Source: Spirochaetota bacterium
GTDB lineage: Bacteria; Spirochaetota; Spirochaetia; Treponematales; UBA12059
Direction: 5' to 3'
Assembly: GCA_003247225.1 (NCBI GenBank)
Contig: QKAK01000153.1
Span: 1-37,040 of the forward strand
DNA: 37,040 nt
The notes under the pieces are model-generated. The model saw nothing but the letters and a program-made list of their open reading frames with translations, did not search any database and was not told the origin of the DNA. The translations under genes and the position numbers were made by a program. This document shows, in pieces, positions 6,162-32,426 of the stretch (its first letter is position 1; each line of letters starts with the position of its first letter).

Positions 6162-6249
6162 GGAGAGGTGCGAGAGTGGCCGAATCGGGCTCCCTGCTAA
6201 GGAGTTGTGCCTCTCAAGGGCACCGGGGGTTCGAATCCCCCCCTCTCCG
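6162..6249 (+). tRNA. tRNA-Ser(GCT)
   Basis: Class II tRNA, loop CTGCTAA gives anticodon GCT; acceptor GGAGAGG/CCTCTCC; no encoded CCA. Confidence 0.92.
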
Positions 6250-6295
6250 TAGATGTAAGAAGAGGGCCTTTTTGGTTGCCGATAGTCGTCGCGTC

Positions 6296-6423
6296 GGGGG
6301 ATTCGAACCGAATCCTCGCCGAGCGTAGCGAGGAAAAGGCGCCAGGACGGCGCCGAAAGAGGATGAGGTGGGTCGACGAAGCGCGTAGGACGCGCGCGAG
6401 GAGACCGAATCCCCTCCTCTCCG
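6296..6423 (+). repeat. tRNA-Ser-associated structured element, copy A
   Basis: GGGGGATTCGAACC...CCGAATCCCCTCCTCTCCG; internal hairpins; 3' end resembles the 3' end of tRNA-Ser(GCT); homologous to copies B and C. Confidence 0.88.
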
Positions 6424-6469
6424 TAGTATTTAATAGACGGGCCTTTATTAGGTCATTGGTCTTTAACAT

Positions 6470-6543
6470 GAGGTTATAGCTCAGCTGGATAGAGCGTCAG
6501 ATTGCGGATCTGAAGGTCGGAGGTTCGAATCCTCTTAGCCTCA
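6470..6543 (+). tRNA. tRNA-Arg(GCG)
   Basis: Full cloverleaf; anticodon stem TCAGA/TCTGA with loop TTGCGGA; Arg identity A20 in the D loop. Confidence 0.9.
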
Positions 6544-6553
6544 CTAGTTTTTT

Positions 6554-6640
6554 GGAGAGATGCGAGAGTGGTTGAATCGGGCGGTCTCGAAAACCGTTAA
6601 ACCCGCGAGGGTTTCGGGGGTTCGAATCCCCCTCTCTCCG
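6554..6640 (+). tRNA. tRNA-Ser(CGA)
   Basis: Class II tRNA, loop CTCGAAA gives anticodon CGA; acceptor GGAGAGA/TCTCTCC. Confidence 0.92.
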
Positions 6641-6689
6641 TAGAGCAAATGCGGAGACCGTCTGGTGAGAGGTCCTTTCGATGATCGAT

Positions 6690-6817
6690 GGGGATTCGAA
6701 CCGAGTCCCCGCCGACCAGCGGGAGGAATAGGCGCCAAGGATGGCGCCGCGAGGGGACGAGGCGGGTCGACGAAGCGCGCAAGGCGCGCGCGAGGAGACC
6801 GAATCCCCCTCTCTCCG
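6690..6817 (+). repeat. tRNA-Ser-associated structured element, copy B
   Basis: GGGGATTCGAACC...CCGAATCCCCCTCTCTCCG; last 17 nt identical to the end of the upstream tRNA-Ser(CGA). Confidence 0.88.
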
Positions 6818-6822
6818 ATAGG

Positions 6823-6846
6823 CCGCCCTCGCAGGCGGTTTTTTTT
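6823..6846 (+). terminator. Rho-independent terminator directly after element copy B
   Basis: CCGCC-CTCGCA-GGCGG followed by TTTTTTTT. Confidence 0.85.
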
Positions 6847-6882
6847 GAGCTTCGTAGGTAAGAATGGCTTCGTGGTTTCTTT

Positions 6883-6968
6883 GGAGAGATGTCCGAGTGG
6901 TTTAAGGTCCACGCTTGGAAAGCGTGCGTGCTCACAAGGCACCGGGGGTTCGAATCCCCCTCTCTCCG
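6883..6968 (+). tRNA. tRNA-Ser(GGA)
   Basis: Class II tRNA, stem CACGC/GCGTG with loop TTGGAAA gives anticodon GGA. Confidence 0.92.
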
Positions 6969-7027
6969 TCGTTGATATCGGCCGCAGCGAACGATTTACT
7001 GCGACTGTTTTCCTTTCCGTTGAGAGA

Positions 7028-7155
7028 GGGGGATTCGAACCGAGTCCCCGCCGACCAACGGGAGGAAAAGCCGGCAGGATGCCGGCGGAAGGGGATGAGG
7101 CGGGTCGACGAAGCGCGTAGGACGCGCGCGAGGAGACCGAATCCCCCTCTCTCCG
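7028..7155 (+). repeat. tRNA-Ser-associated structured element, copy C
   Basis: Outer perfect inverted repeat GAGAGAGGGGGATTCG/CGAATCCCCCTCTCTC (left arm starts at 7022); 3' end identical to the end of tRNA-Ser(GGA). Confidence 0.88.
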
Positions 7156-7207
7156 TCGTTATTACCGGCCGCCGCGAACGATTCACGGCGACTTTCTTCG
7201 AGCGCTG

Positions 7208-7307
7208 GTAGCCAGGCCCTACGCTATCGGTCGCCGCCTAACTCCGCCAGGTCCGGAAGGAAGCAACGGTAAGCGGTTGGCCGTTGTGCCGTAGTCAGCC
7301 TGGCTAC
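7208..7307 (+). ncRNA. ffs: Bacterial small SRP RNA (4.5S)
   Basis: Conserved CCAGGTCCGGAAGGAAGCAACGGTAAG core; GTAGCCAGGC/GCCTGGCTAC terminal stem; upstream of dnaX. Confidence 0.92.
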
Positions 7308-7332
7308 GAGCGCTCGAGGTTTCTTAGGCGGC

Positions 7333-30910: not shown

Positions 30911-31759
30911 ATGCTCCAGGAAGAAGGCTCCTATCCGCTCATAGAACCCTCCGACGACTTCCACGACTGCGCCGACCGCCTGGCCGCGTCCGGGGCCGAC
31001 GAATTCGCCTTCTTCCCGTTCATCGACCCCGACGCCGTCGAGCGGGCGGCGCTCGGCCGCTTCATGCCGATGGGGCTGAGCCTCGAGCTCGACGGCCGGC
31101 GCCGCGACCTGTTCCTGCCGAAGCTGCACCTCGAGCGCTGCCTGCTCGACCCCCGCGATACGCGAGTGACGGCGACCGCCCGGCGCGAGTCGCGGCGATA
31201 CTCGCTGAGCGTCAACCGCGCCTTCGGGACGGTGCTGTCGTCGTGCGTGGCGACCCACGGCGCCGACTGGCTGGTCGGCGACCTGACGCGGGCCTTCACG
31301 GCCCTCCACGCGCAGCGATCCCGGCGTCGCGTCGCCTTCGTATCCGTCGAGCTATGGGCCGCGGACGATGGCGGGCCGGACCCGGTCGCCGGCGAGATAG
31401 GCTACGCGGTCGGCCGCGCCTACGCCAGCCTGACCGGCTACACGGCCCGATCCGGCGCCGGCACGGTGCAGCTCGCGGCGCTCGGGGGCCTGCTCGCCAA
31501 GCTTGGCGTCAGGGTCTGGGACCTGGGCATGGCGATGGACTACAAGCTGGCCCTCGGCGGCAGGGCCCTGCCGCGGGAGCGGTTCCTGCCCGAGCTGGAC
31601 GGGGCGTACCGGGTCGACGGCGCGCCCGGCGACGCGGCGCTGAGGGCCGTATCCGGCTTCGCCCCGGCCAGGGCCCTGCTCGACGCCTCGGCGCCGCTAC
31701 CCGACGGCTTCCTTGCCGATTCGGCGAATCTAGCCGATACTGGAGACCATCATGAATAG
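30911..31759 (+). CDS. Leucyl/phenylalanyl-tRNA-protein transferase-like protein
   Basis: GEIGYAVGRAYASLTGYTARSGAGTVQLAALGGLLAKLGVRVWDLGMAMDYKLALGGRALPRERFLPEL resembles the Aat C-terminal half; SVNRAFGTVLSSCVA...WLVGDLTRAFTALH resembles the core. Confidence 0.7.
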   Translation: MLQEEGSYPLIEPSDDFHDCADRLAASGADEFAFFPFIDPDAVERAALGRFMPMGLSLELDGRRRDLFLPKLHLERCLLDPRDTRVTATARRESRRYSLSVNRAFGTVLSSCVATHGADWLVGDLTRAFTALHAQRSRRRVAFVSVELWAADDGGPDPVAGEIGYAVGRAYASLTGYTARSGAGTVQLAALGGLLAKLGVRVWDLGMAMDYKLALGGRALPRERFLPELDGAYRVDGAPGDAALRAVSGFAPARALLDASAPLPDGFLADSANLADTGDHHE

Positions 31760-32426
31760 TCTATTCGTTCTATACACGGCCTTAGCCGTATTCGGCGTCG
31801 GGGTGACCGTCGTCGACATGTTCGGCGTGTTCGAGCACGCGGGCGGCGACGACGCTTCGGGCGGCGACGACGCATCCGGCGGCGACGACGCATCCGGCGG
31901 CGACGACGCATCCGGCGGCGACGACGCATCCGGCGGCGACGACGCTTCGGGCGGCGATCATGCCGGACACGCGGACGGCAGGGGCGGCGGCTCCGTCGTC
32001 GCCTCCGCGGGGACCGGCACGAGGGCGGTCGCCAAGGCCATCGGGACCCTGCGCCTCGGCGTCTATTTCTCGCTCGGCGCCGGACCGACCGGCCTGTTCG
32101 CCCTGCTGACCGGGCAGCGGCCCGTCGCCAGCCTAGCTTGGAGCGCGGGCGCCGGCCTGTTCATCGCGGCGCTCTCGAAGGCGCTGCGCGCCTTTATCCG
32201 CAAGGACCTGGACTCGTCGATCAAGCCCGCCGAGTTCATCATGGACGAGGCCGTGGTCACGGTGCCTGTGCTGCCCGGCGAGATGGGAAAGGCGACGGTC
32301 CGCAGCTACGGCAAGGAGACCGAGCTGTACGTGCGGTCGAGGGACGCCGCCGCGGCCTTCCCGAAGGGCAGCGCCGTGCGCATCGTCGATTTCGACGACG
32401 ACTGCTACTGGATCGAGCCGGCGTGA
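31752..32426 (+). CDS. NfeD-like membrane protein with GGDDAS repeat insertion
   Basis: N-terminal TM, repeat, two TM segments, C-terminal OB-like VVTVPVLPGEMGKATVRSYGKETELYVRS...FPKGSAVRIVDFDDDCYWIEPA; directly upstream of flotillins. Confidence 0.75.
   Translation: MNSLFVLYTALAVFGVGVTVVDMFGVFEHAGGDDASGGDDASGGDDASGGDDASGGDDASGGDDASGGDHAGHADGRGGGSVVASAGTGTRAVAKAIGTLRLGVYFSLGAGPTGLFALLTGQRPVASLAWSAGAGLFIAALSKALRAFIRKDLDSSIKPAEFIMDEAVVTVPVLPGEMGKATVRSYGKETELYVRSRDAAAAFPKGSAVRIVDFDDDCYWIEPA
31842..31949 (+). repeat. 18-bp tandem repeat, six full copies
   Basis: GGCGGCGACGACGC(A/T)TC(C/G) x6 encoding (GGDDAS)6, followed by a degenerate GGDHAG unit. Confidence 0.95.

Follow-up and report, generated by a model that had tools for sequence, protein, structure and literature searches.

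Why should three tRNA-Ser genes in a single cluster each be followed by a short structured segment that ends in a copy of that gene's own 3′ end? The window, meaning the whole 37,040-nucleotide stretch of Spirochaetota DNA analyzed here, contains four tRNA-Ser genes and one tRNA-Arg, followed by an SRP RNA and a dnaX-like open reading frame (ORF). ARAGORN and Rfam place tRNA-Ser(TGA), (GCT), (CGA), and (GGA) and tRNA-Arg(GCG) where an earlier, sequence-only reading had put them, and the three homologous elements that it described behind tRNA-Ser(GCT), (CGA), and (GGA) are real (6293–6424, 6686–6818, and 7025–7156). These elements, A, B, and C, align with a mean column identity of 92%. The spacings first reported for them (174, 177, and 187 nt) are correct, measured start-to-start from the tRNA tail to its copy, and the tail copy is exact over 18 nt in B and C, with one mismatch to tRNA-Ser(GCT) in A. 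In each unit, a spacer leads into an inverted T-arm copy (INV); the conserved hairpin core follows, and the unit finishes with the tRNA 3′ end repeated in direct orientation (DIR). INV and DIR pair as a closing helix, P1, around the core. The features in the window are:

6162–6249, plus strand: tRNA-Ser(GCT), host of element A (ARAGORN, Rfam); its 3′ end, 6232–6249, is the copied part
6293–6424, plus strand: element A (covariance-model bounds)
6296–6309, plus strand: INV arm of A, GGGGGATTCGAACC, the 5′ strand of P1 and the reverse complement of the tRNA-Ser(GCT) T-arm
6406–6423, plus strand: DIR of A, the 3′ strand of P1, which repeats the tRNA-Ser(GCT) 3′ end but for one mismatch
6554–6640, plus strand: tRNA-Ser(CGA), host of element B (ARAGORN, Rfam)
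6686–6818, plus strand: element B
6690–6702, plus strand: INV arm of B, GGGGATTCGAACC
6800–6817, plus strand: DIR of B, an exact 18-nt copy of the tRNA-Ser(CGA) 3′ end
6824–6846, plus strand: intrinsic terminator after the DIR of B (from the comparison of empty and filled sites with genome G005)
6883–6968, plus strand: tRNA-Ser(GGA), host of element C (ARAGORN, Rfam)
6951–7012, plus strand: tail and trailer of tRNA-Ser(GGA), duplicated (partner copy 7138–7199)
7022–7041, plus strand: INV arm of C, GAGAGAGGGGGATTCGAACC, 20 nt, 100% complementary to the tRNA-Ser(GGA) tail
7025–7156, plus strand: element C, the reference copy
7051–7065, plus strand: P3a of C, hairpin CCGACC-AAC-GGGAGG, which contains tandem G.A pairs and is more conserved than any other stretch of the family
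7070–7086, plus strand: P3b hairpin of C, GCCGGC-AGGAT-GCCGGC
7103–7138, plus strand: P4 arm of C, with outer pairs, an internal loop, and a GC-rich hairpin
7138–7155, plus strand: DIR of C, an exact 18-nt copy of the tRNA-Ser(GGA) 3′ end

The INV arm of element A, 14 nt long, is 100% complementary to 6228–6241. In element C, the first base of the DIR pairs in P4 and the remainder closes P1. P3b is GGCGCC/GGCGCC in A and B, a compensatory difference from the GCCGGC/GCCGGC of C. The computed fold of element C has an energy of −70 kcal/mol, against −53.1 ± 3.9 in shuffles (z = −4.4). Duplication at this site extends beyond the tRNA itself, with the trailer of tRNA-Ser(GGA) repeated after element C to give a 62-nt direct repeat (6951–7012 and 7138–7199) that is 87% identical. 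Directly behind element C lies a small bacterial SRP RNA (7210–7308); elsewhere in the window, the ORF at 31752–32426 would encode a protein with tandem DDASGG repeats close to the N terminus. No Rfam family reaches threshold on A, B, or C, so the suggestion that the family is unnamed holds, and a search of Rfam for a known family at relaxed thresholds returned nothing beyond chance matches and hits driven by the tRNA.

A covariance model built from 45 diverse copies detects elements in 43 of 61 related genomes, with 17 copies in the genome of the window and 21 in one relative (G035). The sequence-only reading had counted a lack of homologues at tRNA loci of relatives toward its refutation, and the outcome in these genomes is strongly the opposite. 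By blastn, 35 of the 61 have matches, a few of the weakest being to the tRNA tail alone. An even sample of Spirochaetota gave 32 positive genomes out of 248, including members of other classes, and one of them (G247) has 26 copies. A scan of named genomes with the core pattern produced matches in Treponema, other spirochaetes, Omnitrophota, and Deltaproteobacteria; cultured carriers include Breznakiella homolactica and Brucepastera parasyntrophica. In three Deltaproteobacteria the model identifies 11, 10, and 9 copies; four Omnitrophota have 14, 4, 3, and 3, and one Nitrospirae (Nitrospirota) genome has 4, while an actinomycete genome is without a match to it. The core pattern also hit a Chloroflexi contig, by what looked like coincidence in coding sequence. 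No description of the family was found in the open-access literature.

The distinct copies number 222. A tRNA or tmRNA gene immediately precedes 150 of them on the same strand, and 48 stand in tandem behind another copy; the rest are at contig edges (4) or elsewhere (20). Every copy placed beside a tRNA is downstream of it and in the same sense. The proposed restriction to serine tRNAs falls away, however, as the hosts cover 34 anticodons and tmRNA, with tRNA-Sec in addition in one Deltaproteobacterium, and the genome of the window itself has copies at Pro, Ala, Gly, Lys, Glu, Cys, and Leu loci. Similarly, tRNA-Ser(TGA) is without an element in this genome, as noted before, but carries one in relatives. 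At six loci (L101, L117, L121, L038, L310, and L338), elements follow tRNA 3′ halves that start in the anticodon arm; these are probably halves displaced by island integration, and several of the 20 copies placed elsewhere are of this kind. Two Spirochaetaceae copies (L077, 1069–1195; L092, 2992–3127) consist of the core without a nearby tRNA or tRNA-like ends.

Both ends of a unit are fitted to the gene that precedes it. The median exact direct match is 19 nt to the unit's own tRNA and 6 nt to other tRNAs, and for the inverted arm the corresponding medians are 13 and 6. Within the Ser clusters, the best fit is to the unit's own tRNA in 47 copies, is tied in 8, and is to another tRNA in 1. The DIR usually spans T-loop position 56 to the discriminator of the host tRNA (it starts at position 56 in 75 of 126), and its boundary in the identity profile is the mature tRNA 3′ end. 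The tRNA trailer is often repeated behind the DIR, with identity declining gradually past the tRNA end. In 23 copies whose duplicated trailers have decayed below 45% identity, the DIR is still 95% identical to the tRNA, with an exact match in 17. Because the DIR continues to match after the trailers have diverged to background, the copy must be kept in step by selection or conversion. The units, with a median length of 177 nt, thus constitute a cross-phylum family of tRNA-tail repeats, each fitted to its own tRNA.

The fold of the core is supported by covariation. Across helices P1, P2, P3a, P3b, and P4 of 45 copies, 390 cells are changed on both sides, compared with 126 ± 10 after shuffling, and slid controls drop to background; compensatory changes are present in P2, P3b, and P4. 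Tandem G.A pairs occur in the middle of P3a in 42–43 of the 45 copies, and this hairpin and the loops are conserved across phyla. On inspection, a hammerhead-like reading of the core was rejected; a reading of the loops as CsrA-like GGA motifs was also set aside, some loops being ACGA rather than AGGA. In the core helices, G-T pairs outnumber A-C pairs by 100 to 39, which points to the tRNA-sense strand as the folding strand. G.U (G-T) pairs are no commoner in the elements than other mismatches and make up 2.5% of pairs, against 4.7% in SRP RNA from the same loci, a scarcity that leans toward a fold at the level of DNA. It is no proof of one, since tRNA controls from the same loci range from 7.8% in the inner acceptor-stem pairs to 0.8% in anticodon stems, which are just as poor in G.U.

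The closest known counterpart is the set of repeats at the E. coli tyrT locus (RtT, RF00391), known for decades as an isolated curiosity. E. coli K-12 has four RtT repeats behind tyrT and tyrV, with tandem 178-nt units after tRNA-Tyr, close to the family median of 177. Each repeats 19 nt of the tRNA 3′ end directly (AATCCTTCCCCCACCACCA) and has a 10-nt inverted arm (GGGGAAGGAT, or GGGGAAGGGT in one repeat) that pairs with the tail copy. Rfam draws RtT with two helices, one outer and one inner, and with two hairpins. The new elements share this anatomy, both as downstream units carrying a tRNA 3′-end copy and in the INV/DIR outer helix, inner helix, and two hairpins, and to this extent the sequence-only description of an rtT-like, tRNA-linked family was right. 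In addition, the first RtT hairpin has the tandem G.A arrangement C-GA-GC...GC-GA-G in three of four copies, for an expectation of 2% per shuffled copy. The two groups also differ. The E. coli locus that we read has a tRNA-Tyr host, as opposed to 34 anticodons and tmRNA; its P4 arm is reduced, and its core sequence is largely different. The RF00391 model scores the E. coli repeats at 133–138 bits and has no match in the window, its best match in the whole genome (E 4.5) falling in unrelated places, while the new model applied to the E. coli tyrT locus recovers the four repeats as its four best hits, all weak (E 0.01–0.05). Since the anatomy is the same but the elements lie outside the Rfam model, we call them "rtT-like"; common descent of the two is likely, though not proven. 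In Spirochaetota, Deltaproteobacteria, Omnitrophota, and Nitrospirota, the tyrT anatomy stands behind dozens of tRNA species as well as tmRNA and tRNA-Sec, and what had looked like a one-off of a single enterobacterial tRNA becomes a comparative problem. The tyrT-tyrV spacer of E. coli K-12 (L382, 1166–1282) contains the fourth RtT-like repeat, whose P2 is CCTTCG/CGAAGG in place of the GCTTCG/CGAAGC of the others.

Between orthologous filled and empty sites, the difference is a single whole unit, and both states leave the tRNA intact. In G005, the terminator comes directly after tRNA-Ser(CGA), without a unit, whereas in the genome of the window one unit precedes the same terminator. The reverse holds for tRNA-Ser(TGA), which is filled in G005 and empty here: the sequence after the G005 DIR is that found after the tRNA in the window, and the G005 repeat takes in 9 nt of the local trailer. 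Such pairs do not distinguish gain from loss, and the empty sites could all be losses. Occupancy varies widely across 27 Ser clusters, with the unit-bearing tRNAs changing between congeners. Arrays also occur, one of five near-identical units at tRNA-Pro of G247, with terminator-like hairpins between units, and another of 111-nt units at tRNA-Ser(CGA) of G030. Orthologous copies persist vertically (between-genome core identity is 94% for Pro, 94% for tmRNA, and 89% for Gln), so any recent mobility would be conjecture. A nearest-neighbor test found 26 of 80 copies nearest to a copy in the same genome, where 1 was expected; only 5 of these pairs join different amino acids, and bursts of spread within genomes are therefore rejected.

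Considered together, these data lead us to favor, tentatively and at slightly under an even chance, a model in which the elements are rtT-like non-coding units of ∼175 bp that join the chromosome at the tRNA T-loop and leave without a scar. Entry at the T-loop would restore a full 3′ half to the tRNA and leave the second such half behind as the DIR; recombination between the tail copies would then remove the unit scarlessly. The match between INV and DIR in P1 suggests folding of the tRNA-sense strand, with the T-arm sequence as the joining site. On this view, the family would reside in chromosomes as a slow element, non-autonomous and specific for tRNA tails. Against this model, no tested enzyme gene tracks the elements and only one copy is adjacent to an integrase; orthologous copies persist vertically, gain at a new tRNA is not directly observed, and no viral or plasmid carriers turned up. 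The model also leaves the refitting of both arms to a new tRNA unaccounted for.

The candidate movers were compared with the distribution of elements across the 61 genomes. Integron integrase has no significant association with them (Fisher p = 0.40): full-length IntI is present in 16 of 43 carriers and 9 of 18 non-carriers, leaving 27 of the 43 carriers without it, and the genome of the window has one. The elements resemble integron attC sites in being imperfect palindromes that form tandem arrays, but have no cassettes and are not tracked by IntI. The Y1 (TnpA_REP) transposase is likewise without association (Fisher p = 0.10), none being found in the window's own genome. As with REP/REPIN and other palindromic mini-elements, the units are small, non-coding hairpins in many copies per genome; they differ in lying behind tRNA and tmRNA genes, in having ends fitted to each host gene, and in being untracked by this enzyme. 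Reverse transcriptase, which a retroelement such as a group II intron or retron would call for, occurs in 15 of the 61 genomes, was not found in that of the window, and has no association (p = 0.75). The single integrase-adjacent copy is in G029, where a 394-residue tyrosine recombinase (PF00589; L296, 101–1285, contig C49) lies directly upstream of an element-bearing tRNA-Asp; relatives of this protein give partial matches in other genomes and stand beside no other copy among 230 loci scanned. Searches of phages, plasmids, and viral contigs turned up no carrier of the core, and in viral contigs a loose 14-base pattern gave only uninformative hits.

The main rival of the insertion model is a functional RNA. 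The unit would be transcribed in the pre-tRNA as a 3′ trailer. Enzymes of tRNA processing would free it by cleaving at the 3′ end of the tRNA and again at the DIR, with INV and DIR mimicking an acceptor/T-stem minihelix, and it would then have a regulatory or decoy role like that suggested for E. coli rtT RNA. The uniform downstream, same-sense placement of tRNA-adjacent copies, a DIR boundary at the mature 3′ end, the excess of G-T over A-C pairs that marks the tRNA-sense strand as folding, and the conservation of the G.A hairpin and loops across phyla all fit this idea, as does the annotation of E. coli rttR as a small RNA. Element B, which precedes the native terminator, is predicted to be co-transcribed with tRNA-Ser(CGA). 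However, 58 of 150 copies have a terminator-like hairpin in the spacer that separates them from the tRNA, compared with 32 in shuffled spacers, as at tRNA-Pro of G247, and all the copies concerned have spacers of at least 40 nt; judged from sequence, some copies could be transcribed, whereas for others this is doubtful. These hairpins, together with the rarity of G.U pairs relative to SRP RNA, weigh against the RNA part of the sequence-only proposal, and a set of unit-bearing tRNAs that shifts between congeners would be odd for a conserved regulator. We regard a functional RNA as unlikely, if still a serious contender.

Two further explanations were weighed. The elements could be passive local repeats, derived from an ancient tRNA-side hairpin and spread, lost, and homogenized by slippage, unequal exchange, and gene conversion alone, with neither dedicated mobility nor function. 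Tandem arrays with duplication of whole units, the persistence of orthologous copies without an enzyme gene that tracks them, and the gradual fall of identity past the tRNA end, as expected from conversion tracts or slippage, are consistent with this, yet it explains neither how the same core came to stand behind 34 anticodons, tmRNA, and tRNA-Sec, both arms being refitted, nor the conservation of that core from Spirochaetota to Omnitrophota with compensatory changes in P2, P3b, and P4; we consider it improbable. Alternatively, tRNA and tmRNA 3′ ends are classical targets of tyrosine-integrase islands, and the elements could be minimal relics of these, with the T-loop as att site. The tRNA 3′-end direct repeat, its T-loop boundary and extension beyond the tRNA end, and the intact tRNA are common to both. 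The elements differ from islands in having no integrase or cargo and a length of about 177 bp, and an inverted arm and conserved core of ∼95 nt are foreign to such islands; the tandem arrays of near-identical 180-nt units are a further point against this origin. With an integrase beside one copy only, and no phage or plasmid homologues, an island origin is very improbable, and annotators should be aware that direct repeats of a tRNA tail do not necessarily denote genomic islands.

The insertion model can be extended to a more specific and less likely form, in which the family is a new class of non-autonomous element, T-loop-specific for tRNA and tmRNA across several phyla. Such an element would recombine as a folded tRNA-sense single strand, rebuild the tRNA on entry, and refit both of its ends to every new host tRNA, and the E. 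coli tyrT repeats would be a surviving enterobacterial branch. The family offers clean tests, in its refitted ends, in the filled and empty sites of congeners, and in a core that is presumably recognized by a protein. Extra hairpins are present in the P3b loop at three loci (L023, 116–303; L031; and L062, from 2044 onward), representing either insertions into the element or longer variants of it.
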